Source of the DNA: Micromonospora pallida
GTDB lineage: Bacteria; Actinomycetota; Actinomycetes; Mycobacteriales; Micromonosporaceae
Length of the DNA stretch: 64,000 bases
NCBI RefSeq assembly: GCF_900090325.1
Contig: NZ_FMHW01000002.1
Coordinates: forward strand, 2,108,001-2,172,000
Direction: 5' to 3'
This document shows positions 9,303 through 44,400 of this stretch, in pieces (the stretch's first letter is position 1; every line of letters starts with the position of its first letter). A model generated the notes under the pieces. That model was not told where the DNA came from. It saw only the letters and a program-made list of their open reading frames with translations, and made no database searches. Both the position numbers and the translations under genes were made by a program.

Positions 9303-10325
9303 ATGTTCACGAACGAGTCCGAGTTGGAGGAGCGGCTCGCCCGCCCGTCGCCGGCCCTGGTCGCCGACCTGACCGACGGCACCGGTGACCTGGTGGTACT
9401 CGGTGCCGGGGGCAAGATGGGGCCGTCGCTGTGCCGGCTGGCCCGCCGAGGGCTGGACGCCGCCGGCCGCACCGGCGACCGGGTGTACGCGGTGTCCCGC
9501 TGGACCGACCGCGCCGCCGCCGAGGCGCTCGCCGCCGACCGTGTCGATCCGGTGCCGTTCGACCTGCTCGGCGACACCGACCTGGGCGGACTGCCGGACG
9601 CCGCCGACGTGGTCTTCATGGTCGGCGCGAAGTTCGGCACCTCGGCCGCGCCGTACCTGGCGTGGGTGGTCAACGCGGTGCTGCCGGCGGCGGTCGCCCG
9701 CCGCTACCCGACGGCGCGGATCGCCGCGTTCTCCACCGGCAACGTCTACCCGATGGTGCCGGTGGGCTCCGGCGGCTGCCGGGAGGCCGACCCGCCCGGC
9801 CCGGTCGGCGACTACGCGATGAGCTGCCTCGGCCGGGAGCAGGTCTTCGCGCACGCCGCCGCCACCCGGGGCACGCCGGTGGCGGCGCTGCGGCTCAACT
9901 ACGCCGTCGACCTGCGCTACGGGGTGCTCGCCGACATCGGGCAGACGGTGCTGGCCGGCGAGCCGGTCGACGTGACCACCGGGCACGTCAACGTGGTCTG
10001 GCAGGGCTACGCCAACGAGGTGGCGCTGCGGTCGCTGCGGCACGCCACGCCCGACGTGTTCACCCTCAACCTGACCGGCCCGGAGACCGCCCCGGTACGG
10101 CGGATCGCCGAGCGGATGGGTGAGCGGCTCGGTCGGCCGGTCACTCCCACCGGCGCCGAGGCGCCCACCGCGCTGCTCAGCGACGCCACCCGCTGCCACG
10201 CCCTGTTCGGCTACCCGGACGTGCCGCTGGGCACCCTCATCGACTGGCAGGCCGACTGGCTCGCCGCCGGTCTGCCCACCTCGGGCAGGCCGACGAAGTT
10301 CGCCGTCCGCGACGGAAGGTTCTGA
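9303..10325 (+). CDS. NAD-dependent epimerase/dehydratase family protein
   Basis: 340 residues from ATG 9303, 5 nt after the permease stop. It is an extended SDR: a nucleotide-binding strand VVLGAGGKMGPSL replaces the strict GxxGxxG, and a later FSTGNVYP and DYAMSCLGRE region corresponds to the catalytic strand and YxxxK-like helix, although the usual YxxxK reads YAMSC and lacks the lysine. The substrate is unknown; the context (transporter upstream, aldolase downstream) points to a sugar or sugar acid. The missing canonical lysine means activity should not be assumed to be a standard epimerase reaction. The N-terminal 30 residues before the Rossmann strand are an extra helix. Confidence 0.75.
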   Translation: MFTNESELEERLARPSPALVADLTDGTGDLVVLGAGGKMGPSLCRLARRGLDAAGRTGDRVYAVSRWTDRAAAEALAADRVDPVPFDLLGDTDLGGLPDAADVVFMVGAKFGTSAAPYLAWVVNAVLPAAVARRYPTARIAAFSTGNVYPMVPVGSGGCREADPPGPVGDYAMSCLGREQVFAHAAATRGTPVAALRLNYAVDLRYGVLADIGQTVLAGEPVDVTTGHVNVVWQGYANEVALRSLRHATPDVFTLNLTGPETAPVRRIAERMGERLGRPVTPTGAEAPTALLSDATRCHALFGYPDVPLGTLIDWQADWLAAGLPTSGRPTKFAVRDGRF

Positions 10326-19292: not shown

Positions 19293-21083
19293 GTGATTCC
19301 ACCGCGCGCGCCGGCCTTCGCTGCCGACGATCCCGACCGGGCCGTCGAGCTGCACGACGTCGCGGGCCGTTCCCAGCTCGTCGCCTGGCACCGCGCCACC
19401 GGTGACCACCGGATCCTCACCCACACTCCACAGGGGGTGGACGCCTGCGACCTCGAACCGGACGGCGGCCACGTCTGGTGGTTCGACGCCGGCCCGGACG
19501 GGTCGGGAGTCTGGCGCCGCCAGCCGTTCACCGGCGGGCCCGCCGGTCCGGGCCTGACCGGCCTGCCCCGGGGCCGGCCGTACGGCGTCGCCTTCGACCG
19601 GGCCGGAACCCGGGTGGCCGTCTGCGTCGGAGTCGACGCGGAGTCCCACTGCTACCTGGGCCGACCCGGCGGGCCGGCACACCTGCTGGCCACCGCCCCG
19701 GGCTACCTGCCCCTGGTGGACCTCAGCGCCGACGGCCGGTTGCTCGCGCTGGCCGGACGACCCGACAGCCCCCGGGCGGTCACCGTGCTGCGACCCGGCG
19801 ACGGACACACCGACGTACTGGCCGGTGACCGGCACCGTCGGGTGTGGGCGCTGGAGTTCCGCCCCGGAGACGACGACCCCGACCTGCTGGTCGTCGTCGA
19901 GGCGGACGGGCGGTACACCGTCGGCACCTGGCGTCCGGGGCACGACCTGCGCCTGCGCGAGCACCTGGCGTTCGACTCGGAGATCACCGCCCACTGGTAC
20001 GCCGACGGCCGTCGGGTGCTGGTCCAACACGACCGGGCCGGCCGCAGTCGGCTGCTCCTGGCCGACCTCGACGGCGGCGTGCCGCGCGTGCTGCCGACCC
20101 CGGCCGGGACCATCCTCGACCTGGCCTGCGCCCCCGACGGGGCGATCCACTACGTGTGGAGCCGGGAGGCGGTGCCACCCCGGCACCTGGTCGTCGACCC
20201 GGAGCGCGACCGCGACCCGGCACCGGTGCCGGCCGTACCCGGGCGCGGCGAGGTGTGGACGCCGCAGCCGTACGGCCGGATCCACAGCTTCCTGGCCGTG
20301 CCGCCCGGCCCCGGGCCGTGGCCGACGATCATGCTCGTGCACGGCGGACCGTTCCTGCACGACCGGGACAGCTACGACCCGAGGGTCGAGGCGCTCACCC
20401 GCGCCGGGTACGCCGTGGCCCGCACCAACTACCGGGGCTCCTCCGGCTACGGCCCGCGCTGGCGGCACGGCTTCGGCCACCGGGTCGGCCTCGCCCAGCT
20501 CGAGGACCTCACCGCGGTACGCCGGCACCTGGTCGACCTCGGCGTCGCCCGAACCGGGCAGATCGGGTTGTGCGGCTACTCCTGGGGCGGCTACCTGGTG
20601 CTGCTGGCGATGGGCGTCCAGCCGGCGGACTGGGCGGTCGGACTGGCGGTCTCCCCGGTGGCCGACTACCTGGCGGCCCACCGCGCGACGATCCCCGCCC
20701 TACGGGAAGCCGACGAGGAACTCTTCGGCGGCACTCCCGACGAGGTACCCGACCGGTACCGCGCCGCCGACCCGATGACCTACCTCGACCGGGTCCGGGG
20801 TCCGCTGTTCCTCGCCGCCGCCACCGACGACGAGCGGTGCCCGGCGGAGGCGGTACGGCGGTACGTGGCCGGGCTGCGCCGCCGGTCGGTGCCGCACGAG
20901 GTGCGCTGGGTCCCTGGCGGACACCACGGGGACCCCACCGGCCAGACGGCGGTCTTCACCGCCCTGCTCCGCTACGCCGCGACGGTGCTGCCCGCCGAGC
21001 CGGGGCACCTCACCGACGTACCTGAACCGGACCTCCGCGACGGGCGGGGGTCGTCCACCCCAGAGACCATCGGAGGGAGGTGA
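19293..21083 (+). CDS. S9-family serine peptidase (prolyl oligopeptidase/acylaminoacyl peptidase type)
   Basis: 596 residues from GTG 19293 (AGGA about 12 nt upstream). The N-terminal about 330 residues are beta-propeller blades (repeated LLVVVEADGR, RVLVQHD strands). The C-terminal alpha/beta-hydrolase has GGPFLHDRD, Ser430 in GYSWGGY, Asp512/513 in AATDDERCP and His544 in GGHHGDP, so the catalytic triad is complete. S9 enzymes cut short peptides admitted through the propeller. The 3' end of this gene contains the ribosome-binding site of the precursor gene, so they are co-expressed. It is a plausible leader peptidase or processing enzyme for the RiPP, though a housekeeping role or self-resistance is possible. 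Confidence 0.85.
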   Translation: MIPPRAPAFAADDPDRAVELHDVAGRSQLVAWHRATGDHRILTHTPQGVDACDLEPDGGHVWWFDAGPDGSGVWRRQPFTGGPAGPGLTGLPRGRPYGVAFDRAGTRVAVCVGVDAESHCYLGRPGGPAHLLATAPGYLPLVDLSADGRLLALAGRPDSPRAVTVLRPGDGHTDVLAGDRHRRVWALEFRPGDDDPDLLVVVEADGRYTVGTWRPGHDLRLREHLAFDSEITAHWYADGRRVLVQHDRAGRSRLLLADLDGGVPRVLPTPAGTILDLACAPDGAIHYVWSREAVPPRHLVVDPERDRDPAPVPAVPGRGEVWTPQPYGRIHSFLAVPPGPGPWPTIMLVHGGPFLHDRDSYDPRVEALTRAGYAVARTNYRGSSGYGPRWRHGFGHRVGLAQLEDLTAVRRHLVDLGVARTGQIGLCGYSWGGYLVLLAMGVQPADWAVGLAVSPVADYLAAHRATIPALREADEELFGGTPDEVPDRYRAADPMTYLDRVRGPLFLAAATDDERCPAEAVRRYVAGLRRRSVPHEVRWVPGGHHGDPTGQTAVFTALLRYAATVLPAEPGHLTDVPEPDLRDGRGSSTPETIGGR

Positions 21084-21088
21084 AAGCA

Positions 21089-21232
21089 ATGAAGCGACGC
21101 ATCGTGCGGAACGACCCGATCAGCACCGGCGAGCGGGACCGCGGCGCCGTCATCGTCAAGATGCTCCTCGATCTCGACCGGGCGGTTCCGGCCGCGCGTC
21201 CGCAGGCGACCAACGCGGACCGCAGCAAGTGA
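21089..21232 (+). CDS. Candidate RiPP precursor peptide (47 residues)
   Basis: ATG 21089 follows GGAGGGAGGTGAAAGCA, an excellent ribosome-binding site; the gene ends at TGA 21230-21232. The product starts MKRRIVRNDPISTGERD, is rich in Arg/Asp, has an aliphatic patch (AVIVKMLLDLDRAV) and ends AARPQATNADRSK. It sits between an S9 peptidase and a radical SAM RiPP methyltransferase, exactly where a precursor is expected, and is followed by a stable hairpin that separates abundant precursor mRNA from enzyme mRNA. I do not recognise the peptide family, and the leader/core border is unknown; the C-terminal half with Ala, Pro, Gln, Thr and Asn would be the likely core. A non-precursor small protein remains possible. 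Confidence 0.7.
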   Translation: MKRRIVRNDPISTGERDRGAVIVKMLLDLDRAVPAARPQATNADRSK

Positions 21233-21251: not shown

Positions 21252-21290
21252 GCACCGTTTCCGGAGCGCGCGCGGCTCCGGGAACGGTGC
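21252..21290 (+). terminator. 16-bp stem-loop after the precursor gene (attenuator candidate)
   Basis: Arms 21252-21267 and 21275-21290 pair over 16 bp with one G-U wobble and a 7-nt GCGCGCG loop, 19 nt after the precursor stop and 26 nt before the radical SAM start. No T tract follows. It should act as a partial terminator or 3' mRNA stabiliser giving precursor excess over enzymes. Confidence 0.65.
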
Positions 21291-21316: not shown

Positions 21317-23215
21317 TTGAAGATCGTCTTGGTGCACATGCCGTGGGGGTCGCTCGACGTCCCGTCGCTGGCCCTGGGCATCCTGCGGACGGCGGCTGCC
21401 CGGGCCGGCCACGACGTCGAGATCCGCCACGCCAACCTCGACTTCGTCGACTGGTCGGTGGGACGACTCCCCTTCGGCCTGGCCGACTACCAGTACTTCG
21501 CCGAGTCGTCCTACTTCCAGGGGGCCGGGGACTGGGTGTTCTCCAGCGCGCTCTACGACGGACCACGCCCCGCCGCGTCGTTCGCCCGACTGCTGGCCGA
21601 CGCCGGTTCGAGCCCGGCCGAGATCGCGATGACCGCCGAACTGCACCGGCTGGTGCCCGACTTCGTGTCCGCCCTCGTCGCCGACCTGTGCGCCACGGAC
21701 GCCGACATCGTCGGCTTCACCAGCACCTTCCAGCAGAACACGGCCAGCCTGGCCGCCGCCCGGCTACTCAAACAGCACCGCCCGGACGTACGGACCGTGC
21801 TTGGCGGCGCCAACTGCGACGGCCCGCAGGGCGCGGCGCTGCACCGGAACTTCCCGTTTCTGGACTACGTGGTCCGGGGCGAGGGGGAGCTGGCCTTTCC
21901 CCGGTTGCTCGAGGCGGTGGACGCCGGAGCGACCGACCTGGCGGACATCCCCGGACTGTGCTGGCGGGACCGAGCGGGCGAGGCGCGGGCCAACCCGCTG
22001 TCGACCCGGCCACTGCCGCCGGAGCGGATCGTCGCCCCCGACTACGCCGGCTACGTCGAACGGCTGGACGCCTCGGCGGCCGCCGAGTGGGTGGCGCCGA
22101 AGCTGGTCGTCGAGGGCTCACGCGGCTGCTGGTGGGGCGAGAAGCACCACTGCACGTTCTGCGGGCTCAACGGCTCGCTGATGCAGTTCCGCAGCAAGAG
22201 CCCGGCCCGGTTCCTCGACGAGGTGCTCGGCCTGGCCCGCGAACACCAGATCCTCGACTTCATCGTGGTCGACAACATCCTGGACATGGCGTACTTCGAC
22301 TCCGTGCTGCCGCGGCTGGCCGAGTCGGGGTACGACGTACGCCTGCACTTCGAGGTCAAGGCCAACCTGCGCCGGCAGCACTTCCGGCGGCTGGCCGAGG
22401 CCGGCGCGGTACAGGTCCAGCCGGGGATCGAGAACCTGAGCACCCACGTGCTGCGGCTGATGGACAAGGGCGTGACCGGCTGCCAGAACGTCCGGGCGCT
22501 CCGCGAGGCGCAGAGCGCCGGCGTGACCACCAGCTGGAACTACCTGTACGGCTTCCCGGGCGAGACGACCGAGGACTACACCGACGTCATCGCCCAACTG
22601 CCGATGCTGCACCACCTCGACCCGCCGATGAGTTCCGCCCGGATCGCCATCGAACGGTTCAGCCCGTACTTCGACCGGCCGGAGCTGGGCTTCCCGACGC
22701 TCGAGCCGGCCCCGCAGTACCGGGAGATCTACCAGCTACCGGCCGGGGAACTCGCCGACCTGGCGTACATCTTCACCACCGTCGCCCAGGGCATCGACCG
22801 GACGGGGGCGGCGGCCCTCGACGTCGCGCTGGACCGGTGGCGGGCCGCGTACCCGGTCAGCCGGTTCACCTGGCAGGACCTCGACGACCGGATCGTACTG
22901 GTCAGTCGACGCGCCGGCTACGACTGGTCGGTACGGGAACTGACCTCGCCGGTCGAGGTCGGACTGTTCCGGATGCTGGAGCAGCCCCGTACGCCCACCG
23001 CGCTGGCCGCCCGGACCCCCGGCGGGGAAGCCGTGGTGGGTCGACTGCTGGAGCAGTGGTGGGAGCTGGGCATCGTGTTCCGCGAGGGCGGCTACTACGT
23101 ACACACCGCCGTGGAGTCACACAACCAGGTCCTGGCCCGGGTCGACCACCATCGCGCCCAGGCCGGCGACACGGCCCGCGCCGGGGAGGAGCGCCATGCC
23201 GTCGCCGCCGGCTGA
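21317..23215 (+). CDS. B12-binding radical SAM enzyme, RiPP maturation C-methyltransferase type (TIGR03975-like)
   Basis: 632 residues from TTG 21317, with GAGAGGAG 7 nt upstream; the open frame back to 21287 lacks a better site. N-terminal residues 1-200 form a cobalamin-binding-like domain (LGILRTAAARAGHDVE, TVLGGANCDGPQG, VVRGEGELAFPRLL). The radical SAM cluster is Cys271, Cys279 and Cys282 in RGCWWGEKHHCTFCGLNG, a CX7CX2C spacing characteristic of the RiPP maturation radical SAM family 1. The barrel continues with EVKANLRRQH and GIENLSTHVLRLMDKG. The expected role is methylation of unactivated carbons of the precursor peptide using SAM and cobalamin in the cytoplasm. It overlaps the next gene by 20 bp. 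Confidence 0.88.
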   Translation: MKIVLVHMPWGSLDVPSLALGILRTAAARAGHDVEIRHANLDFVDWSVGRLPFGLADYQYFAESSYFQGAGDWVFSSALYDGPRPAASFARLLADAGSSPAEIAMTAELHRLVPDFVSALVADLCATDADIVGFTSTFQQNTASLAAARLLKQHRPDVRTVLGGANCDGPQGAALHRNFPFLDYVVRGEGELAFPRLLEAVDAGATDLADIPGLCWRDRAGEARANPLSTRPLPPERIVAPDYAGYVERLDASAAAEWVAPKLVVEGSRGCWWGEKHHCTFCGLNGSLMQFRSKSPARFLDEVLGLAREHQILDFIVVDNILDMAYFDSVLPRLAESGYDVRLHFEVKANLRRQHFRRLAEAGAVQVQPGIENLSTHVLRLMDKGVTGCQNVRALREAQSAGVTTSWNYLYGFPGETTEDYTDVIAQLPMLHHLDPPMSSARIAIERFSPYFDRPELGFPTLEPAPQYREIYQLPAGELADLAYIFTTVAQGIDRTGAAALDVALDRWRAAYPVSRFTWQDLDDRIVLVSRRAGYDWSVRELTSPVEVGLFRMLEQPRTPTALAARTPGGEAVVGRLLEQWWELGIVFREGGYYVHTAVESHNQVLARVDHHRAQAGDTARAGEERHAVAAG

Positions 23216-23855
23216 CGTCGACGCCACCGGGGTACGGGTCGAGCTGTCCCGCGACTACGACCCGGTCGCCGCCCGGTTACCCGGGATGGCGCTGGGCGCC
23301 CGCGACCTCGCCGGGGCGTGCGGTCCGGCCGCCGCCGGCTGGTACCGCGAGGGGGCCCGGTACGCGCGGCTGCCCGCCCCGGTCGACCTGTGCCCCGACG
23401 CCGACGCCGCCTCGGCCCGGGCGCTCGTGCTGATCCGTGAGCTGACCGCGCACGGGATGGCGGTCGACTGGACCGCCCGCTGCCACGACGGATGCCACGG
23501 CGACGGCCTGTTCGCCCACCTGTACCCGCCGACGCGGGTCGACGGCGATCCGCACGGCGCGACCGCCGCCGGCTGGCGGGACGGGTTCTTCCCCAGCCGG
23601 TGCGTCCACCGCCGGGGGCCGGGGTTCGTCGAGGTCCGGGACCGGCGGTTCGGCCCGCTGGAGGTGATCACCGTCGACGAACCGGAGCACCTCGCGGCGG
23701 TCGCCGCGGCGGCGGAGGGCGTCGACCGGGAACGGGTGCCGGCCGAGGTCCGCCACGACCTCGTCGGGGCGCGACTGCTCGTCGAACGGGCCGGGCACCT
23801 GTGGTGGCTGCCGACCCGCGCCTACCGCTGGCCGTTCCCCGCCCTCATCGTGTAG
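23196..23855 (+). CDS. DUF5825-like partner protein of the radical SAM enzyme
   Basis: 219 residues; ATG 23196 preceded by GGGGAGGAGC inside the end of the radical SAM gene. A C-terminal module containing RRGPGFVEVRDRRFGPLEVI and HLWWLPTRAYRWPFPALIV is what I associate with DUF5825, a family found beside these radical SAM RiPP enzymes. Its biochemical role is not known; peptide presentation or a scaffold role is guesswork. A TTA leucine codon at 23277-23279 (residue 28) is notable in this GC-rich genome and suggests bldA-type developmental control of the pathway. Confidence 0.75.
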   Translation: MPSPPADVDATGVRVELSRDYDPVAARLPGMALGARDLAGACGPAAAGWYREGARYARLPAPVDLCPDADAASARALVLIRELTAHGMAVDWTARCHDGCHGDGLFAHLYPPTRVDGDPHGATAAGWRDGFFPSRCVHRRGPGFVEVRDRRFGPLEVITVDEPEHLAAVAAAAEGVDRERVPAEVRHDLVGARLLVERAGHLWWLPTRAYRWPFPALIV

Positions 23856-23892: not shown

Positions 23893-25083
23893 ATGGACAC
23901 GGCACCACCGGGACAGGCCCCGTTCATCGTCGACCCGTACCCGACCCTGGCCCGGATCCGGGCCAACGGGCCGGTGTCGATCCTGCACAGCGACGAGGGC
24001 CTGCCGATGTGGGTGATCGCCCGGTACCGCGACGTGCGGGCCGCGCTGGCCGACCCGAGGTTCGGCCAGGACGTCCGGCGGGCGCAGCAACTGGCCGACG
24101 ACCGGGTCGCGGGTACGACGCTCGGCAGCGACATGGTCCACATGCTCAACAGCGACCCGCCCGACCACACCCGGCTCCGCCGGCTGATCCACGGCTTCTT
24201 CACCGCCAAGCGGGTGGCGGCGATGCGGCCGATGGTCGAGCGGACCACCGCCATGCTGCTCGACGGGCTCGACGGCCGGGACACCGTCGACCTGGTGACG
24301 GACTTCGCCTTCCCCCTGCCCATGCTGATCATCTGTGAGCTGATCGGTTTCCCGCCGGAGGACCGCCTGGCCTACCGGGAGTGGTCGACGGCGGTGCTCA
24401 CCCACAGCGACGACGCCGAGGCGTTCGGCCGGGCGATGCGGGACCTGACCGACTACATCACCGGGCTGCTCCGGCAGCGCCGCGACGATCCCCGCGACGA
24501 CATCCTGACCGTGCTGCTCGCCGCCCGCGACCAGGGCCACCTCACCGACGACGAGATCGTCGGCATGGTGTTCCTGCTGCTCATCGGCGGTCACGAGACG
24601 ACCGTCAACCTGCTGGGCACCGCCACTCTCGCCCTGCTCCGCCACCCCGACCAGTACCGCTGGCTGCGGGAGCACCCGGCGGCCCTGCCCGTGGCGGTGG
24701 ACGAGTTCCTCCGGTACGAGTCCCCGGTCAGCATGGCCACGCTGCGGTTCACCACCGCCCCGGTGGACGTCGACGGGGTCGAGATCCCCGCCGGTGAACT
24801 GGTCCTCGTCTCACTGGGCGGTGCCAACCGCGACCCGGACCGGTTCCCCGACGCCGACCGGCTCGTCCTCGACCGGGCCGATCCCGGGCACCTCGCCTTC
24901 GGTCACGGCCTGCACCGGTGCCTCGGCGCGTTCCTCGGCAAACTCGAGGGTGAGGTGGCCCTCGGCCAACTGCTGGCACGCCACCCCGGGATGACGTTGG
25001 CCGGCACCGAGGACACCCTGCGGTGGCGCAACACGATCATGCTGCGAGGGCTGGAGTCGCTGCCGGTGGCCCTGCATGGCTGA
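23893..25083 (+). CDS. Cytochrome P450
   Basis: 396 residues; ATG 23893 follows GAGGAGACCC. All P450 landmarks are present: I-helix GGHETT, K-helix EFLRYESP (ExxR) and the heme loop FGHGLHRCLGA with Cys343 as thiolate ligand. It is the soluble bacterial class that uses ferredoxin. Placement between the RiPP radical SAM pair and an exporter, with an 8-bp overlap to the latter, indicates a tailoring reaction on the peptide, such as hydroxylation or oxidative cross-linking. No ferredoxin gene is adjacent. Confidence 0.92.
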   Translation: MDTAPPGQAPFIVDPYPTLARIRANGPVSILHSDEGLPMWVIARYRDVRAALADPRFGQDVRRAQQLADDRVAGTTLGSDMVHMLNSDPPDHTRLRRLIHGFFTAKRVAAMRPMVERTTAMLLDGLDGRDTVDLVTDFAFPLPMLIICELIGFPPEDRLAYREWSTAVLTHSDDAEAFGRAMRDLTDYITGLLRQRRDDPRDDILTVLLAARDQGHLTDDEIVGMVFLLLIGGHETTVNLLGTATLALLRHPDQYRWLREHPAALPVAVDEFLRYESPVSMATLRFTTAPVDVDGVEIPAGELVLVSLGGANRDPDRFPDADRLVLDRADPGHLAFGHGLHRCLGAFLGKLEGEVALGQLLARHPGMTLAGTEDTLRWRNTIMLRGLESLPVALHG

Positions 25084-26326
25084 CACCGCCACCGCCACCC
25101 GTCGACGCCTGCGGCCCCGGCTCGACCTGACGCCGCTACGGTCCCGGAACTTCCGGCTGTTGTTCGCGGCCGAGTCCATCTCGGTCTTCGGCGACGCGTT
25201 CCACGCGGTCGCGCTGCCCTGGCTGGTCTACACCACGGGTGGGGGCGCCCGGGAACTCGGACTGCTGGTCGCGGTCTACGGCCTGTGCCGGCTGGCGACC
25301 ACCCCACTGGGCGGGATCCTCGCCGACCGGATCGGCGCGTGGCGGGTGATGCTCGCCGCCGACCTCGTGCGGCTGGCCTGCACTGTCGGGATCGCGGTGG
25401 CCGCCGTCACCGGTGTCCGGGATCTCGTGCCGATCGGGCTCCTGGTCGCCGGCACCGGCCTGGGCGCCGGGCTGTTCCAACCGGCGGCGTACGCCATCAC
25501 GCCCCGCCTGCTCCCGCCCGAGCAGCTCCAGGCCGGCAACGCGCTGAACAGCACCGCCGCCTTCGCCGCCGGGCTGGCCGGCCCCGGGGTGGCCGGACTG
25601 GTGGTGGTGGCACTCTCGCCGGGTGCGGCGTTCACCGTGGACGCGCTCACCTTCGCGGTGTCGGCGGCCTGCCTGGCGGCCATCGGGGCGAGCCACCGCC
25701 GGGCCACGCCGGTCGTCGTCGAGGCAGGGTCACCCCCGGCGCCCCGGGCGACGTTCCGGCAGGCCCTGCGCGAGTCACCGTTGCTGCGTACGGTCCTGGT
25801 AGTGACCGCGGCGGCCAACCTGACCGTCGGCGGGATGATCCGGGTCGGCCTGCCCTCCCTGGCCAGCGTGGACCTGGCCGCCGGAGCCGGCGGCTTCGGC
25901 GGCCTGCTGGCCGCGTTCACCGGCGGTTCGCTGGCGGGTGGACTGTTCAGCGCCGCACTGACCGGCGTCCGGCGGCGGGGCGCCACCGCCATGCTCGCCG
26001 GGCTGGTGATGGCCGGGGCGGTGGCGCTGGTGCCGTTCGCCGGGTACGTCGGCGCCCTCGTCGCCCTGGCCGTCGCCGGGGTCGCCAGTACGGTCACCAA
26101 CGTGCTGATCATCACGGAGGTCCAGCAGCGGACCGCCCCGCACTTGCTCGGTCGGGTGATGAGCGCGGTGCTCTTCGCCGGGCTGGGTCTGTTCCCGCTC
26201 TCCACGGTGGTCGCCGGTCTGGTGGTGGAGGCGTACGGCAGCACGGTGCTCTTCCTCGCCACCGCCGCGACGCTGGCCGCCGCCTTCGGGTTCGGGCTGT
26301 CCCGCCGGACGATGCGGGAGCAGTGA
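25076..26326 (+). CDS. MFS transporter, probable RiPP exporter
   Basis: 416 residues with about 12 membrane segments; ATG 25076 overlaps the P450 end by 8 bp. The start FRLLFAAESISVFGDAFHAVALPWLVY and the loop GGILADRIGAWRVML are typical of the MFS group with EntS/macrolide-efflux-like proteins. As the last gene of the RiPP operon it most likely exports or gives self-protection against the modified peptide. It is convergent with the response regulator gene, 52 bp away. Confidence 0.88.
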   Translation: MADTATATRRRLRPRLDLTPLRSRNFRLLFAAESISVFGDAFHAVALPWLVYTTGGGARELGLLVAVYGLCRLATTPLGGILADRIGAWRVMLAADLVRLACTVGIAVAAVTGVRDLVPIGLLVAGTGLGAGLFQPAAYAITPRLLPPEQLQAGNALNSTAAFAAGLAGPGVAGLVVVALSPGAAFTVDALTFAVSAACLAAIGASHRRATPVVVEAGSPPAPRATFRQALRESPLLRTVLVVTAAANLTVGGMIRVGLPSLASVDLAAGAGGFGGLLAAFTGGSLAGGLFSAALTGVRRRGATAMLAGLVMAGAVALVPFAGYVGALVALAVAGVASTVTNVLIITEVQQRTAPHLLGRVMSAVLFAGLGLFPLSTVVAGLVVEAYGSTVLFLATAATLAAAFGFGLSRRTMREQ

Positions 26327-33934: not shown

Positions 33935-35497
33935 GGTCCCGGCGTCGTCGGTGCTGGGCAGCGGGACGTCCGGTGCGGCCAGTAACTGGAGCAGCAGCCG
34001 GTGGTACCGGTCGAGCCAGTCGACGAGGGTGTCGGCGTCGAGCCGGGTCGCCGCGTACTCGACGTGCACCCACATCCCGCCCTCCGGCAGCGGGCGCAGC
34101 GACCAGGTCAGCTCGCCCCGACTGCCGGCCAGCACGACGTCCCGAGCGAGGGCCGGTTCCAGGCCGGGCAGGCGCAGCACCGGGTCGGGCAGGTCGAGCA
34201 GGTCGAAGTAGACCCGGGTCGGCGGGTGGGTGAACGCCGGGCCGAGCGCCGCGACCTGCACGACCGAGGGCACCGCCTGCCGGGCCAGCATCTGCCAGAC
34301 CACCCCGGAGGTCCGCCGGGCCAGATCGTCGAAGGACGCCACCCCGGCCACCGGGACGATCACCAGGGCCGCCTGGGCGAAGACCCCCACCACCCGGTCG
34401 AACCGGGCATCGGTGCGGTTGGCCACCGAGGCGATCAGGTTGATGACCGGCGCACCGGTCATGTCGTGCATCAGCCAGACGAAGGCGGCGGCGTACACGG
34501 CGTACGGGGTGACACCGCGACTCATGGCGTACGTTGCCACCGCCTCGGCCAGCTCGGCGGGGATGGTGTGGCGGAGCACCCCGCCGGGGTCGGTGACGCC
34601 CGGGGCGGCCGGCCGGTCCGTGGGCAGCCGGAACGGGACGGTGCCGGCGGGCAGTCCGTCGAACCACTCCCGCAGCATCCGCTGGGTCTCCGGTCGGGCC
34701 AGGTACTCCGCCTCCCACCGGCAGAAGTCGGCGTACTCGGCGGGCAGCGGCGGCAGGTCGGCGGGGCGGCCGGTGACCGCCGCCTGGTAGAACTCCGCCA
34801 GATCGTCCAGGAGTGGCTGGACCGACCAGCCGTCGACGAAGGCGTGGTGGATGGCGAGGGCCAGTTCGTGCCGGTCAGGGTCCGGGCCGGCCGGCCCGTC
34901 CGTCGGCTGGAACAGCGCCGCCCGAAACGCCGGCTCCCGATCCAGGGCGAACGGGATCGACGCCCACTCCCGGATTGCGCGGTCGAGCTGGTCGGTGGGG
35001 ACCGTCCGCACCGGCAGCGGCACCGGCCGGGGCTCGAGCACCTGCTGACAGAGCCCGTCGTCCCGAACCGCGAAGCGGGTCCGCAGGACCGCGTGCCGGA
35101 CGGCCAGGTCGGTGACCGACCGACGCAGCGCCGCCCGGTCCAGCGGACCACGCAGCTCCAGCCGGAGGGCGACGGTCAGCACCTGCGGGAAGTCGGTCTC
35201 CTGGGCGATCTGGAACTGCCGGGCCTGACCGACGCTGGCCGGCGCGGTGACCAGCACCCGACGGCCGCCCCCGTCGCCGTCGGGGACGACCTCCGTGGTC
35301 CCGGCGACGTCACCGCTGGGGCGAAGTCGGGCCAGCAGCGCCGGCTTGAGCCGCCGCATCGTCGCGAGCAGGTCCGCGTCGAGCGCGTCGGCGGGCGCGT
35401 CGTAGTCGAGCTGCTCCCCGCGTACGGTGAGCCGCACCTCCCGGCGGCGCAGCTCGTCCAGCAGGTCGTCGACCTGGGGTGAGTCGGTCGTGGTCAC
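33929..35497 (-). CDS. NRPS protein: TubC-type docking domain plus one condensation domain
   Basis: 522 residues from GTG 35497 in a GTGA overlap with the big synthase. Residues 5-55 (DDLLDELRRREVRLTVRGEQ, then LDYDAPADAL and LLARL) are a TubC N-terminal beta-hairpin docking domain. Residues about 90-510 are a condensation domain with an intact HHAFVDGWS active site. There is no adenylation, carrier or thioesterase domain. Docking predicts that it receives the chain from the preceding synthase and joins it to a free or separately carried amine, or releases it. This C-only protein is the last gene of the operon. Confidence 0.88.
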   Translation of the reverse strand: MTTTDSPQVDDLLDELRRREVRLTVRGEQLDYDAPADALDADLLATMRRLKPALLARLRPSGDVAGTTEVVPDGDGGGRRVLVTAPASVGQARQFQIAQETDFPQVLTVALRLELRGPLDRAALRRSVTDLAVRHAVLRTRFAVRDDGLCQQVLEPRPVPLPVRTVPTDQLDRAIREWASIPFALDREPAFRAALFQPTDGPAGPDPDRHELALAIHHAFVDGWSVQPLLDDLAEFYQAAVTGRPADLPPLPAEYADFCRWEAEYLARPETQRMLREWFDGLPAGTVPFRLPTDRPAAPGVTDPGGVLRHTIPAELAEAVATYAMSRGVTPYAVYAAAFVWLMHDMTGAPVINLIASVANRTDARFDRVVGVFAQAALVIVPVAGVASFDDLARRTSGVVWQMLARQAVPSVVQVAALGPAFTHPPTRVYFDLLDLPDPVLRLPGLEPALARDVVLAGSRGELTWSLRPLPEGGMWVHVEYAATRLDADTLVDWLDRYHRLLLQLLAAPDVPLPSTDDAGTT

Positions 35498-38400
35498 AGG
35501 GTCCCCCGGATCCGTCCCGGCCGGTCGGCGTCCACCGACTCCGGCCACGCCTCACGCAACCGCCGGGCCATCCCGCGTACCGTGGGCTCGCGCAGGAAGT
35601 CCAGCACCTCGATGCTCCCGCCGGTCTCCGCGCGGACCCGGTTGAGCAGCCGCATCGCGGTCAGCGACGTGCCGCCCAGCGCGAAGAACGTGGTCTCCAC
35701 GCCGAGGGCCGGCAGGCCCAGCTCGGCGCACCAGAGGTCGTGCAGCCGGTGTTCCAGGTCGTCGGTGGGTGGGGTGCCGTCTCCGGCCCACGCCACCGCC
35801 GTCCGGTCCGGTTCGGGCAGCGCGGCCCGGTCGATCTTGCCGCTGTCCGTGGTGGGCAGCTCCGGCAGGAGCGTCCAGGCGGTCGGCACCAGGTAGTCGG
35901 GCAGGTGGGCGGTGAGCCGACGGGCCAGGTCGGCCGGGTCGACCCCGGCCCGGTCGGGGACGACGTACCCGGCGAGGTAGTGGCCCCCCTCGGGGTCGCG
36001 CCAGCCGCGTACCGCCGCGTCCCGTACCCCGTCGAGCCGGCGCAGGTGGTGCTCGGCCTCGCCGGGCTCCACCCGGAAGCCCCGGATCTGCACCTGGGCG
36101 TCGGCCCGGCGCAGGAACTCCAGTTGCCCGTCCGGTCGCCACCGGAGCACGTCGCCGGTGCGGAACACCGGCCCGTACTCGGGATGGTGCAGGAACCGGG
36201 CCGCCGTCTCCTCCGGCAGCCCCAGGTAGCCCCGGCCCAACTGCCGGCCGCCGAGGTACGCCTCCCCGGGTACGCCGACCGGGGTGGGCCGGCCGTCGTC
36301 GTCGAGCACCCGGATCCAGGTGCCGGGCACCGGCTGGCCGATCGACGGCAGCTCGTCGGCGGGGGCGCTGCCGTCGAGGTGGACCCAGGTGGAGACCACG
36401 GTCGCCTCGGTCGGGCCGTACACGTTGGTGAGGGTGAACGACGCCTCCGGCGGCGCGCCCCGACGCAGCCGGTCACCGCCGACGACGAGGTGCCGCAGCG
36501 CCGGGCGGGGCCCGTCGGACCAGTCCAGGTCGAGCAGCAGTTCCCCGACCGGGGTGGGGAAGAAGGCCACGGTGATGGCGGTGTCGACCAGCCAGTCCCG
36601 CAGCCGCTCCGGGTCGAGACGGACGTCGTCGGGGACCACGTGCAGGGTGGCTCCCCCGCGCAGCGCCGGCCACACCTCGATGCAGGAGGCGTCGAAGCCG
36701 GGGCTACAGAACCAGCTCAGCCGGTCGTGGGCGGTGATGTCGAGGTCCCGGGTGTACCAGGCGACGGTGTTGCTGATCGCCCGGTGCGGGATGACGCAGC
36801 CCTTGGGCCGTCCGGTGGAGCCGGAGGTGAACAGCACGTACGCCGGGTCGTCCAGTCCGACCGTCACCGGGTGACCGCCACCGTGGTCACCGGGGTCGTC
36901 GACGGTGAGCCGGTCCAGGTGCAGGGTCGCGGCGGCCCCGGGCAGTGGGGGCAGCGTGGAGCGGGACACCACCGCACGCAACGCGCCCTGGTCGACGATG
37001 TCGGCCAGCCGGGCGGTGGGCTGCTCGGGTGCCAGCGGGACGTAAGCCGCCCCGGCGCCCAGCACGCCGAGCATCGCGGCGACCGCGTCGGCGCTGCGGG
37101 GCAGGTGGACCCCGACGAGGTCGCCGGGGCCGACGCCGGTGGCCCGCAGGGCGGCGGTCACCGACGCGGCGCGGCGGCTCAGCTCCGGCCCGGTCAGCCG
37201 CCCGTCCGGGTCGAACACGGTGGCCCGGTCCGGACGCAGCAGGGCGGGCAGCGGCGCGTCCGCACCGGCGGCCGGCGGTCCGCCGTCCTGCCACGGCAGG
37301 TCCGTCGTGGACGCACCGGTCGGGGCGGCCGGTCGGCGGTGGCCGTTCGCGCCGGCCGGGACCGGGTCTTCGCCGCGCGGGCCGGCGTCGAGGTCAGGAC
37401 GGTCCCCGCTGCTCGGGCCGGTGCCGGGCTCGAGGCGGTCGCCGTCGACGGGCGGCACGGTCAGCGGTTCGTCCGGCTGGTCCGTGCCGGTCCGCAGCAC
37501 CGCCGCCAGCCGGTCGAGGACACGACGCGCGGTGCCCGGGTCGAACAGCTCGGTGGCGTAGTTGAGCTGGCAGCGCAGCGTGTCCCCGAGGTCGGTGACG
37601 AAGAGGGTGAGGTCGAACGGCGCGCGGCGCACGGCCACGTCCAGCAGGGTGGTCCGGACCCCGGGCAGGTCGAACGCGAAGGCCGGCTGGTTGTCGTACT
37701 CGATGACCACGTCGAACAGCGGGTGCCGGCCGGGCTCGGGGTCGACGCCCAGGGCCCGCGCGACACGGCCGGCCGGTACATCGCCGTGGTCATGCGCGTC
37801 GAGCAGTGCGGCGCGGGCTGCCCGGACGACGTCGCCGAAGGTCGCGTCGGAGTCCACCGACAGGAGCAGCGGCAGCGTGGCGACGAAGAGTCCGACGGCG
37901 TCCTGCGCGGCGGCGGGACGGTGCGCGACCGGCGTGCCGAGCAGCACGTCGGGTTGGCGGCCGTCGCCGGTGAGGACCGTCGCGAACCCGGCCAGCAGCA
38001 CCATGAACGGGGTGGCCCGGTACCGCCGGCCGACCTCGCGCACCGCCCGGGTGAGGTCCGCGTCGAGCACCAGCCCGGCGACCGCGCCGGTTCCGCTGGG
38101 GGTCGCCGGGCGGGGCCGGTCGGTGGGCAGTCCGATGCCGGGTCGGCCCGACCCGAGCCGGTCCCGCCAGTACGCCAGCTGCGCGTCGACCAGCTCCGGG
38201 GACGGCTCGTCGGTGGGGATCGGCCAGGGCGGGGGTGCCGGCAGTTCGGCCGGGCGGCCGGCCAGCGCGGCCCGGTAGCCGGCGGCCACCTCCCGGGCGA
38301 GCACCTGGGCGGAGAGGGTGTCGATGACCAGGTGGTGCATGCGGAGCACGAGCAGGTGCACCTCGTCGACCACCCGGACCAGCCGGGGGGCGAACAGCGG

Positions 38401-41400
38401 GCCGGCGGCCAGGTCGAAGACGTGTCGGGTCTCCTCGTCGGCGAGCCGCTCGGCGAGGGTGGCGACGTCCTGGCCGGCCGCGTCGTGCACCGGCAGGTCG
38501 ACCGGGCCGGGCGGCTGGGCCACCAGGCGCGGCTCGCCGTCGACCTCACCGACGGTGGACCGCAGCGCCGGGTGCCGCCGCACCACGAGGGTCAGCGCGG
38601 CCCGCAGGGCGGCCACGTCGAGCGGACCGTCCAGGCGGACCACCTGGGACTCGGTGTAGGTGGGACGGCCGGGCAGCACCCGCTCGGCGAACCAAATCTC
38701 CCGTTGCGCCTCGGTCAGCGCGGTGGCGTCGGCGGTCGACGCCCCGGCCGGGTGGCCGGTGGTCGCCGTCGCGGCCGTCTTGTCCGATCCCGGTGCGGCG
38801 GCCGGGTCGGTTGCCGCCGGTACGGCGGTGGCGTCGGCAGCCGGTTCCGCCGGGCCGCGCAGCAGCATGCGCAGCCGGTCGACGCCGGGCAGACCGGCCA
38901 GCATCCGGTTCGGGGAGAGGCCGAAGTCGACGAAGCAGCCGATCTCGTCCACGCCCAGTCCGGTGAGGCGTTCCACCAGTGGTCGGGCCTCCTCCGGGCT
39001 GCCGATCAGCGCCCGGTCGGCGGTGTAGCGGTCGTAGGCACGCCGGAGGAGGTAGTCGAGATCCTCCGGGGTGGTGGACTCCAGGTCGATGGAGAAGCCG
39101 AGGCTGTTCGTCACCTGCCCGAAGAGGGCCAGGGACGACCGCAGGTAGTCGCAGAACGGGCCGAACGCCTCCTCGCGGGCCCGGTCACCGTCCGCGCCGA
39201 GGTAGGTGTGCAGCAACAGCACGACCCGTCCGGCATCGGGGTCCAGGCCGTGCTCGGTGCGGGTGGCCCGGTAGAGGGCGATGTTGCGGGCCAGTTGCGC
39301 GACGTCCTGGGACATCAGGTTGGTGATGACGCCGAGTCCGGCCGCCGCCGCCCGGCGGTAGCTGTCCGGGTTGCCGACGACGGCGGTGAACAGTGGCGGC
39401 ATCGGCTGGACGGGGGCCGGGAAGAGCCGCACCTCGACGGGTTCGCCGTTGCCGGCGGTACGGGTGACCGCCTCCCCGCGCCAGAGCTGGCGGAACTGGT
39501 CGAGGGACTCGTACATCGCCTCCCGGTGGCGGCCGTACGTCTGCGGGGCGAGCACGAAGTCGCGGGCGTGCCAGCCGCTGGCGCAGCCGATCCCCACCCG
39601 TCCCCGGGAGAGGTTGTCCACCACCGACCACTCCTCGGCGACCCGGATCGGGTCGTGCAGCGGCAGCACCACACAGCCGGCGTTGACGCGTACCCGGCTG
39701 GTGCGGGCGGCGACGGCGGCGGCCAGCACGGACGGGTTGGGGAAGATACCGCCGAACGAGTCGAAGTGCCGTTCGGGCAGCCACACCGCGTACAGGCCGT
39801 GGGTGTCGGCGAAGGTCGCCGCGTCGAGCACCGCGTCGTAGCGGTCCTGGACGTCGGCCTGCGGGTAGTCGCCGAAGAAGTACAGACTGACGTCGACCCG
39901 CCCCGACCGGGTGCCTCCGGTGGCCGGGGTCGCGTGCCCCTCGGCGTCGGGCCTCGGCACGGCCACCGTCGCCGAGGGCACCACGGCGACCGGCGCGGCG
40001 GGTGCCCCCGCGACCGGCGCGGGGACGGACGGGGTGGCCGGGGGGCTGGTCGGCACCCACGGCGGGGGCGGGGCCGGGACCGGTCCGGTGGTCGAGCGGG
40101 GGGCCGCGCCGGGCAGGAACCCACCGGCCCGCAGGTCGAGCAGGCAACTGCGGACGGCGTCGACGATCCGGTCGGCGTCGGCGTCGGTGTGCGCGTCGGA
40201 GAGGAAGAAGTTCCGCCACTCCCAGACGTGCACCCCGGCCAGCACCAGGTGGTGGAAGAGCAGGTCCAGGTTGACCTCGGAGGCGAACCGGAACATCGAC
40301 CCGAAGCGGTGCACCCGCAGCGGGAAGTCCTCTGCGGCGCAGAACGCGTTGACGGCCGCGGCGAGTCGTTCGGTGCGCCGGTTCAGCCCGTCCTGCAAGG
40401 CCGGTCCCCGCTGGCGCAGTTCGGTCAGGACGGCCCGGGCCGCGACCATCGACAGCGGGTGCTGGATGTAGGTGCCGCCGAAGAACGTGGTGTCCTGCGG
40501 CGGGGCGCTGTCGTCGCCGTACTGCCAGAAGCCGCCGTCGACCCAGTCCATGATGTCGGCGCGCCCGGCGACCGCGCCGATCGGGTACCCACCGCCGAGC
40601 ACCTTGCCGTACGTGGCGAGGTCGGCGTAGACGCCGAAGACGCCCTGCGCTCCCCGCACGTGGGGGCGGAGCCCGGTGAGCATCTCGTCGAAGAGCAGGA
40701 CCATGCCGTGGCGGTCGCAGGCGGCCCGCAGCGCGCGGAGGAACTCCGCCGGCTGCCGGTCCGGGTACCGGCTCTGCACCGGTTCGACCACCACGGCGGC
40801 GATCCGGCCGGCGGCCCGCTCGATCGCCGCCAGGCTGCGCGGGTCGTCGTACGGCAGGACCATGACGTCGGCCGTCGCCGAGTCCGGAATGCCGGCGGAG
40901 ATCGGCACGGTGCGCCAACTGTCGCCGTCGGGCACCCCACGGCCCAGCACCGGGTCGATGTGACCGTGGTACGCCCCGGCGAACATGACGACCAGCGGGC
41001 GGCCGGTGAACGCGCGGGCCAGCCGGAACGCCGCCGAGTTGGCCTCGGTGCCGGTGGCGGCGAAGGCGACCCGGTCCATCCCGGTCAGGTCGCAGAGCAG
41101 TTCGGCGGCCTCACCGGTCTCCGGGCCCCGGGGACCGAGCCGCAGCCCGCCGTCGAGGTGCTCGGCGATGGCGCGGGTGAGGAACTCCGGCTCGTGGCCG
41201 AAGAGCAGAGCCCCGAAGCCCATGGTGATGTCGACGTAGTTGTTGCCGTCGACGTCCTCGAGGTAGGCGCCCCGGGCCCGACGGGCGGCCAGCGGGTACA
41301 GCATCTCCTTGGTGGCTCGCCGGAAGCCGACCACGGCCCGGGTGTCGGCCAGCCGCCGCCGGTGCCGCTGGGCGAGCGCCTTGGAGGTCGGCGTCCGCTC

Positions 41401-44400
41401 GGTGTAGCGGCGGACCAGGTCGGCGAAGTGCGCCTGCTGCCGGGGATCGAGGCGACCGCCGCCCAGCCCGGCGCCGACCCGGATGGGTCGCGGGCCGACC
41501 TGGGCCGGCTCGGTGGCCGTGGACAGCGCGGACGTCGACGTCGGGGCGGCACCCGCAGCCCCCGGGGTGACGGCGGCCGGCGTGGCGGGCTGTGGCGCGC
41601 CCGTCGCGGTCGGCGTGGCCGGCCCCGGTACGCCAGCCACGACCGGCCCGGCGAGTCCTGGCACGGTCGTCGCGGCCGGTGCCGACGTCCCAGCCGGGAT
41701 CGCCGGTACGGACGACGCCGTGGCGGATGGCGACGGGACGGCGGCCAGCGCGGACAGTTGGCGGGCCATCAGGTCGGTGAACTGCCCTATCAGCGCGAGC
41801 TGGCCCCGGAGCAGCTCGTTGGTGGCGGGGTCACCGGTCAGGGGCACACCGGCCAGAGGCAGGCCGGGCACGGCCGGCGGGACGGCATTCAGCGGCACCG
41901 GACCACCGGATGGCGGGACGATGCCCAGCGGCGCCGGACCACTATCTGGCGGAACCACGGTAGGCACGGCGGGCAGGGGCGGCACCGGGGGCACCACGGC
42001 GGGGGCGACCGGCGTCCCGGGGACGGCTGGCACGGAACCGGGCGTCGTCGCCGCAGCGTCGACGGTCGCCGGGACGGCCGGAGCCACGCCGACGGTGGCC
42101 GGGACGGCTGAAGCCGTGTGACCGGCCGCCGGGAAGTCGACGGACGTCGGTGGGACGTCGGCGGCGGGGGCGCCCAACGCGGCCAGTCGCTCCGGTGCCG
42201 CCCGCTCGACGATCGCCGCCGTCAGTCGGCTCGGACTGTCGAGTTCCTCGAACAGTTCCCGCATGGGGACCCGGATACCGAAGGTCGTCTCCAGCTCCCG
42301 CAACAGGTTGATCATCAGCAGCGAGTCGGCGCCGAGGTCGAAGAAGGGCGTCTCCTCCGGCACCCGGTCCACGTCGGCGCCGAGCTGGGCGGCGGTCAGT
42401 TCCCGGACCCGGCGCAGGACGAGCGCGGTGGGGTCGGATGCCGGGGTGGCGGCCGGGGACATGGCAGGACCTCCTGCGACCGGGTGGTCGGACGGGACGG
42501 GCGGCGTCGGGCGGGGCACGGACACCCAGTGCCGGGTCCGCTGGAACGGGTAGGTGGGCAGGGGCACGCGGCGGCCGGTGGGGGCCAGTGCCGCCCAGTC
42601 GACCTCCACACCCCGGCAGAACAGCTCGGCCAGTGCCGCCGTCACCTCGGCCTCCCGCTCGGCGCGCCCGCGCCGGACCGGGATCCACCGGGTCTGCGGC
42701 CACTGCCGCCCGAGCATGGTGAGCAGCGCCTCCGGGCCCAGCTCCACGAAGGTGGTGCACCCGTCGGCGACCAGTCCGGCGACGCCCGCGCCGAAGTCCG
42801 ACCGTTCGCGGGTCTGCCGGCGTACGTGCCCGGCGTCCGGCCGGGTGCCGGGTGCCAGGCGCGCGCCGCCGAGCCCGGTGACCAGCGGGATCCGCAGCGG
42901 TCGCCAGTCGAGCGTGGCGGCGTGGGCGGTGAGGTCGTCGAGGACCGGATCCAGCAGGGCAGAGTGGAACGCCCGGTCGATCGGCAGCGGCCGGTGCCGG
43001 AGGCCAGCCTCGTCGAGCCGTCGGCCGAACCGGCGCACCGCTGACGGCGGTCCCGCCACCACGTGCCGCCGTGGCCCGTTGGTGACGGTCAGATCGATCT
43101 CCGGTGCCCGGCGCAGCAGCGGGGCCAACTCGGCCTCGTCGGCCAGCACGGCGAGCGCCGCCCCCGGCGGGGTGCCGCGTTGCATCAGCTCGCCGCGCAC
43201 CGCGGCCAGGTGCAGGCCGTCCTCGACGGAGAGCGCGCCGGCCAGGCAGAGGGCGGCGTACTCCCCCGCGCTCTGCCCGATCACCACGTCGGGGCGGACG
43301 CCGACCGACTCCAGCAGCCGGGCCTGCGCGACCTGGAGGGCGAACAGGGCCGGCTGCACGGTGGCGGTGGTCCACTCGTGCGCCGCTCCGCGCAGCGCGG
43401 CCAGCAGGTCGGTGCCCCAGTCCTGCCGGTACCGCGCGGCGCAGCTCTCCAGCACCTCGCGGGCCGGGTCGTACGCCAGCAGGCCGGCCGCCGCCGCGCG
43501 CAGGTTCACCCCCTGCCCGGTGCAGGCGAACACGACCGGTCCCGGGCCGCCGTCGGGAACCGAGCCCGTGACGAAGCCGCCCGATTCGCCCGCCTCGGCC
43601 GGCCGGTTCCGCAGTGCCGTCGCCGCCTCGCCGGGGCCGGCGGCCCACGTCACCAGCCGGTGCCGGCGGCGCTGTCGGCCGGCGCCGAGCGTGACCAGCA
43701 CGTCCTCGGGGCGCGGCGGGTCGGTGGCGAGCCGGTCGGCTGTCCGCTCGGCGAGAGCGGCCAGCGCGTCGGGCGTCTGCGCGGTCAACGGCACGACGGT
43801 GGGCGCGCCCGACGCGGGGTCCGCTGCCGGCGCGGGTACGGCTGGCGTATGGTCGACCGCCGGCGCGAGGTGGGCGTCCGGCGCGAGGTTGACCGGCGCG
43901 GGCGGCACCGAGTCCGCAGCCGGCGCGGCCGGGGGTTCCTCCAGGATCACGTGGGCGTTGGTGCCGCCGACGCCGAGGGACGAGACCCCGGCCCGGCGGG
44001 GACCGGGCAGCGGCCACGGACGGACGGCCGTGGGCAGCTCGAACGGGCCGTCGGCCAGGCCCAGTTCCGGGTTCGGTCGGCGCAGGTTGGCCACCGGTGG
44101 GATTCGGCCGTCCCGGACCGCCATCGTGGCCTTGATCAGCCCGGCCATCCCAGCGGCGGTGTCCAGGTGGCCGATGTTGGCCTTCACGGCGCCCAGCGGC
44201 AATGGCGTGTCGCGGTCGGCGAAGACCGTCCGCAGGGCCGCCATCTCGATCGGGTCACCGACCCGGGTGCCGGTGCCGTGCGTCTCCAGGTAGCCGATCG
44301 ACGCGGCGGGCACGCCCGCCGTCGCCAGCGCGTCCCGGATCACCCCGGCGTGGCCGTCCGCCGTCGGAGCGGTGTAGCCGGTCTTGGCCGCCCCGTCGTT

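Follow-up and report, generated by a model that had tools for sequence, protein, structure and literature searches.

A conserved 47-residue peptide of Micromonospora pallida, very probably the RiPP precursor of a clavusporin-type locus that bears a P450

We analysed a 64,000-nucleotide stretch of the Micromonospora pallida genome (hereafter, the window). Its contig measures 7.6 Mb, and the genome, in 4 contigs, was scored as 100% complete. A 47-codon open reading frame, described earlier from this DNA as a candidate RiPP precursor gene, was located as claimed between the genes of an S9 peptidase and a radical SAM (rSAM) enzyme, and is followed by genes for a DUF5825 protein, a cytochrome P450 and a probable MFS exporter (Table 1). 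Loci with a precursor of the window's type are referred to as MKRR loci (22 in total, excluding L051, which is a second copy of the L061 locus).

Table 1. Features of the precursor locus, with positions in the window.
Feature	Position	Strand	Details
S9 prolyl oligopeptidase (POP) gene	19293..21083	+	PF00326, 112.8 bits (cutoff 22.6); GYSWGG serine motif; start uncertain
Shine-Dalgarno GGAGGTGA	21076..21083	+	S9 stop codon (TGA) inside
Precursor peptide gene, 47 aa	21089..21232	+	ATG 21089 to TGA 21232; sequence MKRRIVRNDPISTGERDRGAVIVKMLLDLDRAVPAARPQATNADRSK
Parts of the precursor peptide			Leader ~1–19, predicted core ~20–34, variable tail 35–47 (residues; boundaries inferred from conservation)
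Hairpin	21252..21290	+	16-bp perfect stem, 7-nt loop, no T-run; begins 20 nt past the precursor stop
Cobalamin-dependent radical SAM C-methyltransferase gene	21317..23215	+	TTG start; TIGR03975, 643.8 bits (cutoff 281.85); B12-binding and Radical_SAM domains
DUF5825 protein gene	23196..23855	+	PF19142, 221.4 bits (cutoff 25); overlaps the rSAM 3' end; rSAM partner in the known system
Cytochrome P450 gene	23893..25083	+	PF00067; heme motif FGHGLHRCLG; fixed in the MKRR subfamily
MFS transporter gene, probable exporter	25076..26326	+	PF07690; match in 21/22 MKRR loci (none in L049)

The short frame is very probably a real gene. Its ATG lies 5 nt after a perfect Shine-Dalgarno, GGAGGTGA, which encloses the S9 TGA and bears out the earlier proposal of a strong ribosome-binding site made from the end of the peptidase gene. 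This element is found ≤25 nt from the precursor start in 21 of the 22 MKRR loci and contains the S9 stop in 6 of the 18 in which this was readable; translation of the S9 and precursor genes may be coupled. The mean pairwise difference at codon positions 1, 2 and 3 was 0.137, 0.118 and 0.315, respectively (codons 2–22, 22 loci), a pattern as in coding DNA, and dN was lower than dS in 11 of 11 pairs computed (ratios ~0.4–0.75), with only moderate constraint across the whole frame because the tail evolves fast. A chance open reading frame was rejected in view of these codon-position differences, the conservation of 64 peptides and an S9/precursor/rSAM order that was kept in all 15 strong matches. 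The peptide itself had no match in Pfam or NCBIfam, and the sources that name MKRR-type peptides call nearly all of them 'hypothetical protein' or 'uncharacterized', so that the class is easily missed; so tiny a gene can also escape length-filtered gene calls.

The hairpin reported 3' of the precursor gene was recovered with a perfect stem of a length reached by none of 200 dinucleotide shuffles. Stems of 12–17 bp, differing in sequence, occupy the same place in 23 of 23 loci examined, including that of Streptomyces clavuligerus, and their length was matched by at most 1 of 200 shuffles, several of these loci being near-identical relatives. These results were obtained with loops of up to 26 nt, the first search having been confined to loops of 3–8 nt and having returned stems of 5–6 bp in 7 of 22 loci. 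The folding energy of the window spacer alone was modest (z −1.96; 9 of 200 shuffles folded equally well) because the region is GC-rich. The hairpin is possibly an mRNA stabiliser, or an attenuator of read-through, that sets the ratio of precursor to enzyme, and may thereby lift precursor mRNA above enzyme mRNA.

The POP frame is open from 18972; its three closest homologues align from residue 100–102 and others from residue 125 or beyond, and between 19200 and 19330 the frame offers a single start codon, the GTG at 19293 (residue 108). The gene after the precursor had been described as a cobalamin-type radical SAM enzyme of a RiPP maturation family with a CX7CX2C cluster, in agreement with its TIGR03975 score and with its cluster motif, CWWGEKHHCTFC; the same pattern was present in 92 of 92 rSAMs examined. 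A search of solved structures with an alignment of 60 DUF5825 sequences returned nothing up to E 10. When 14 window proteins were searched in relatives, those that recurred were the S9, rSAM, DUF5825, P450 and MFS proteins. Flanking genes were rejected as cluster members: three had one sporadic match each (g28167m in L068, g15981 in L113 and g11318 in L123), and six more of the 14 proteins had no match in relatives. The minus strand at 35494–49587, outside the 14 proteins searched, holds a 4697-aa open frame with a strong GC3 bias, which, going only by its size, is possibly an NRPS or PKS and was judged by its position only to lie outside the peptide cluster.

Precursor matches were found in 16 of 354 family genomes. 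Fifteen of these, the window included, were strong and had an S9 homologue upstream and an rSAM homologue downstream; the sixteenth was weak (8.9e-4) and had neither neighbour. The precursor profile used (A1) was built from loci found via rSAM or DUF5825, and at least 8 of the 15 strong genomes (the window, G001, G006, G020, G093, G105, G121 and G181) supplied rows to it, having been found through DUF5825. A single-sequence scan of the genus, independent of A1, identified the precursor in 9 of 160 genomes (window included), with an adjoining rSAM in each of the 9. Queried with the single sequence, a protein search returned 8 peptides; the alignment raised this to 51, and both totals count the window peptide. 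A scan of 396 phylum genomes yielded, besides the window itself, one match that was weak and partial (3.3e-4), and phage records contained only distant rSAMs (24.8–26% identity over at most half of the query). The closest named relatives of the locus belong to Micromonospora, then Salinispora, Catenuloplanes, Actinophytocola, Streptomyces and Kitasatospora. S9, rSAM, DUF5825 and P450 were all present in 22 of 22 MKRR loci, although such co-occurrence counts partly reflect shared ancestry. Thus, a small ORF is conserved at this place in related genomes, the outcome that had been named beforehand as support, and with 64 distinct peptides the sequence comparison strongly supports its candidacy as a RiPP precursor.

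The 64 distinct peptides (window included; counted after removal of duplicates and N-terminal extensions and with M imposed as the first residue) were near-invariant in the N-terminal half (MKRRxVxxDPI...ERxRGAV; leader pattern of the subfamily, M-K-R-R-x-V/I-x-x-D-P-I ... E-R-x-R-G-A-V), a conservation that is biased upward because the set was seeded by A1. Invariant residues were R3, R4, D9, P10, R16, R18, G19 and V21, and K2 (62), I11 (63), E15 (62) and A20 (58) were nearly so. Positions 22–34 were mostly hydrophobic and variable, with A32 in 55 peptides, D28 in 56 (N in 8) and P34 in 54, the last being replaced by A in 7, V in 2 and T in 1; at position 25, F (28) and M (23) prevailed over V (6), I (6) and S (1). 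Beyond residue 35, both sequence and length varied freely. The hydrophobic middle of the window peptide (~residues 20–34), which is semi-conserved in the family, reads AVIVKMLLDLDRAVP; this predicted core is charged and contains no Phe, Tyr, Trp or His. We read the peptide as a putative leader, core and follower. The preliminary description had named a conserved C-terminal core and a variable tail as features that would support it; the tail is indeed variable, but the conserved parts are the N-terminal half and the middle, and it is the C-terminus that varies. L049 (6697–6861), P0043 and P0047–P0051 made up a divergent MKRR subtype, centred on RGLVVPIRIFLNAVDPAP, that has N28 and carries a Pro within its core; the L049 P450 was 57% identical, and no MFS match was found at that locus.

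The conserved P450, absent from the preliminary description, is the most distinctive feature of the locus. It lies just downstream of DUF5825 in 22 of 22 MKRR loci, in at least 8 genera (one fewer if Salinispora is treated as Micromonospora). Among 65 other named loci any P450 match was seen in only 2 (42% and 32% identity, neither adjacent), counts that refer to fetched stretches, a few of whose contigs end near the rSAM. Within the genus, the P450 (E ≤ 1e-140) and the precursor were found in one and the same set of 9 genomes out of 160, window included. This link is strong, though partly a matter of shared ancestry, and P450 and MKRR precursor thus travel as one unit. A midpoint-rooted FastTree phylogeny of 92 rSAMs grouped the 22 MKRR loci into one clade (support 1.0).

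One further member of this clade, L097 (Streptomyces toxytricini), in which the MKRR peptide was not found, carries at 9826–9912 a different, Trp-containing peptide, MKKRTVQSTDSAAGSGRWMVWAAPAARK, with no S9 or P450 match; an upstream protein there has an AMP-binding match (39.9 bits, cutoff 29.9). Outside the clade, L055 (G183:C4, same genus) combines rSAM, DUF5825 and P450 (38%), and simple scans of it returned no D-P-type precursor. The window's own genome holds a second, paralogous cluster (L006 5321–11450; G000:C2 ~1882.9–1889.0 kb, minus strand). It comprises a gene for a 252-aa protein that matched no Pfam family and looks like ferritin by eye only; a tandem pair of small ORFs, MKITVVKVKASTHGVSQHCVLARRDGARPAPTAR and MKITVVKVKAPTHGVCKYLVPLNRPQTQK, both containing GGAGGTGAT; and genes for a B12-rSAM, a DUF5825 protein, a P450 and an MFS protein. 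The second of these peptides had a match in 4 of 160 genus genomes (its own included), the best being 93–100% identical, with an rSAM homologue beside each. This precursor type is wholly unlike MKRR, and its novelty may be the greater.

From the conserved peptides, the order of neighbouring genes and the co-occurrence of the P450, the 47-aa peptide is therefore very probably a RiPP precursor. We estimate a probability of roughly 85% that it gives rise to a ribosomal natural product of a P450-bearing, clavusporin-type branch, with C-methylation, oxidation and trimming as the proposed steps. As suggested by the known relative, rSAM and DUF5825 would C-methylate unactivated carbons of Val, Ile and Leu in the core, the POP would cut after Pro34 and so remove the tail, and the MFS protein would export the product, while the leader would be removed by the POP or by another protease. 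Pro34 would be a natural POP site because the predicted cores of the window and S. clavuligerus both end in V-P, although the replacement of P34 in 10 of the 64 peptides weakens this proposal, and the POP alone does not explain removal of the leader because there is no Pro beside the N-terminal side of the core. In what is the least certain step, the P450 would hydroxylate an aliphatic core carbon or Asp/Asn28 rather than cross-link aromatic residues; hydroxylation is favoured because the window core lacks aromatics and position 25 is variable.

We regard it as unlikely that the P450 instead cross-links core residues into a macrocycle, as in biarylitides or cittilin. P450s do cross-link in several RiPP families, according to two papers (PMC12951456, PMC12257519), and F is found at position 25 in 28 of the 64 precursors; however, the same position is M in 23, V in 6 and I in 6, the window core offers no Phe, Tyr, Trp or His, and the P450 scored far under the cut-off of ApyO, the RiPP P450 taken for comparison (63 vs 525 bits). 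Slightly less probable again is that the peptide is C-methylated and exported like clavusporin and that the P450 acts on some other molecule or is linked merely by position. The enzyme does look like an ordinary tailoring P450, its best match among solved structures being TamI (337.6 bits), and the related MQKD and MRKN loci have no adjacent P450, yet its constant place downstream of DUF5825 across the MKRR genera and its occurrence in just those 9 of 160 genus genomes that carry the precursor argue against this reading, as does the distant paralogous cluster in the same genome, in which rSAM, DUF5825, P450 and MFS again occur together.

That the small ORF is no enzyme substrate at all, and is instead a conserved leader peptide or small partner protein of regulatory or structural function, seems to us very improbable. 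This would fit an N-terminal half that is more constant than substrate recognition may need and a hairpin placed past the small ORF, as in attenuators. It fits poorly with the differently cored D-P-[I/L] peptides that precede the rSAM at the same place in 68 of 80 named rSAM loci and in S. clavuligerus, with the two quite different peptides at this place in the paralogous cluster, and with the coupling of precursor type to P450 presence; moreover, within the operon nothing else stood out as a possible substrate of the rSAM and peptidase.

We lean slightly towards the view that MKRR loci specify an undescribed class of doubly tailored peptides, C-methylated and P450-oxidised on the same aliphatic core, which come partly from non-aerial actinobacteria and have a non-morphogenetic role. 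Micromonospora and Salinispora mostly lack aerial mycelium, so that a morphogen role need not carry over; if this is true, the MKRR product would serve a purpose other than morphogenesis, such as that of an antibiotic or signal. The 64 precursor sequences and the six-gene cassette provide a means of finding peptides that may be both C-methylated and P450-oxidised, and the P450-bearing branch can now be separated from clavusporin-type loci that have no P450.

Clavusporins are reportedly hydrophobic, multiply C-methylated, surface-active peptides that help Streptomyces to raise aerial hyphae, and their operon is said to be widespread in actinomycetes. PMC12257519 describes C-methylation of clavusporins by a homologous B12-rSAM and DUF5825 pair, and PMC12951456 identifies the POP responsible for clavusporin leader removal as MpcP. 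The window has a TIGR03975 rSAM, an adjoining DUF5825, a POP and a short precursor gene between POP and rSAM. On S. clavuligerus pSCL4, in a locus that we take to be the published clavusporin (mpc) cluster, the order is MFS, alpha/beta hydrolase (POP), a 39-aa ORF (MQKDVIHNDPLAGDEENRKPSVGITITVPFRNAEDADED, missing from the incomplete PLSDB table), rSAM and DUF5825, with identities to the window of 43.7% for POP, 56.5% for rSAM and 39.1% for DUF5825. Both loci thus share the series POP, precursor, B12-rSAM and DUF5825, a predicted core ending in V-P and a hairpin past the precursor gene, and without gaps the two peptides have D9-P10 and R18 in common, with L for I at position 11. The window differs in its MKRR precursor, whose core is longer and charged and whose tail varies, whereas the clavusporin type has an acidic FRNAED... 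sequence. P450 and then MFS lie downstream in the window, whereas pSCL4 has its annotated MFS on the upstream side of the POP, and neither window protein had a match in the 12.6-kb S. clavuligerus stretch.

Three main precursor types were recognised: MQKD (Streptomyces), in which most members aligned have a second Pro just before the core; MRKN/MRKR (Micromonospora and others), with a V/T- or V/S-rich C-terminus and no tail; and MKRR (the window). Of the 12 named rSAM loci not counted among the 68, L097 had an ORF of another kind and the other 11 yielded none of the D-P type once the RBS filter was applied; a profile search recovered at least L081 and L093. The MKRR profile scored MQKD peptides at E ≥ 0.55 and the MQKD profile scored MKRR peptides at E ≥ 2.8, with unrelated ORFs scoring equally, and hhalign of the two leaders gave a weak match (E 0.0025, probability 11.8%). 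Profile links via MRKN were E 3e-6 to 8e-5 for MQKD–MRKN and E 0.002 to 2.9 for MKRR–MRKN. The MKRR leader is likely homologous to the MQKD leader by position and motif, though not proven so by score, because the D9-P10-[IL]11/R18 spacing is identical, the position is shared and the MRKN type is intermediate. The window core does not follow the MQKD pattern as read from the loci here (short alternating V/I/T between K-P and V-P-F), and we did not file the peptide as a clavusporin because its core is charged and has no Pro on the N-terminal side.

Several other families were compared. DUF5825 is not known from the polytheonamide or bottromycin systems. Polytheonamide precursors carry a long nitrile-hydratase-like leader; a proteusin assignment was rejected for the window peptide, which has 47 aa, a short leader and no Pfam/NCBIfam match. 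An Apy-type RiPP was rejected on the scores of the rSAM against ApyD (84 vs 750 bits) and of the P450 against ApyO (63 vs 525 bits), and a biarylitide/cittilin-type P450 RiPP on the absence of aromatics from the window core, although F25 is present in 28 of the 64 peptides. According to PMC11285071, polytheonamide PoyB/PoyC and the bottromycin rSAM C-methylate RiPP side chains, with B12 dependence for PoyB/PoyC, and the window likewise has a predicted rSAM C-methyltransferase for a RiPP. Biphenomycin-like clusters of the YHxYxY kind contain a second B12-rSAM and a DUF5825 protein, according to PMC12257519, and in this pair they resemble the window; in contrast to them, no MNIO (PF05114) was found among the 14 window proteins scanned with Pfam, and the window precursor has no FHxFxF or YHxYxY motif.

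The literature searched contained no paper on the MKRR/P450 type, the original clavusporin paper, which may already list the branch, lying beyond it, and a search with six precursor fragments returned one unrelated paper (on lipoxygenase secretion). The earlier suggestion of an unrecognised precursor class and perhaps a new product needs revision in one part, since POP, rSAM, DUF5825, hairpin and leader motif set the locus alongside the clavusporin-type systems, but holds in another, since the MKRR type, its core and the conserved P450 were in no paper found. Judged by its genes, the window locus belongs to a P450-bearing branch of the B12-rSAM and DUF5825 systems (clavusporin-type in the wide sense), and what is new here, namely the MKRR precursor type, the charged core and the fixed P450, is a distinct subfamily beside the kind described in 2025.
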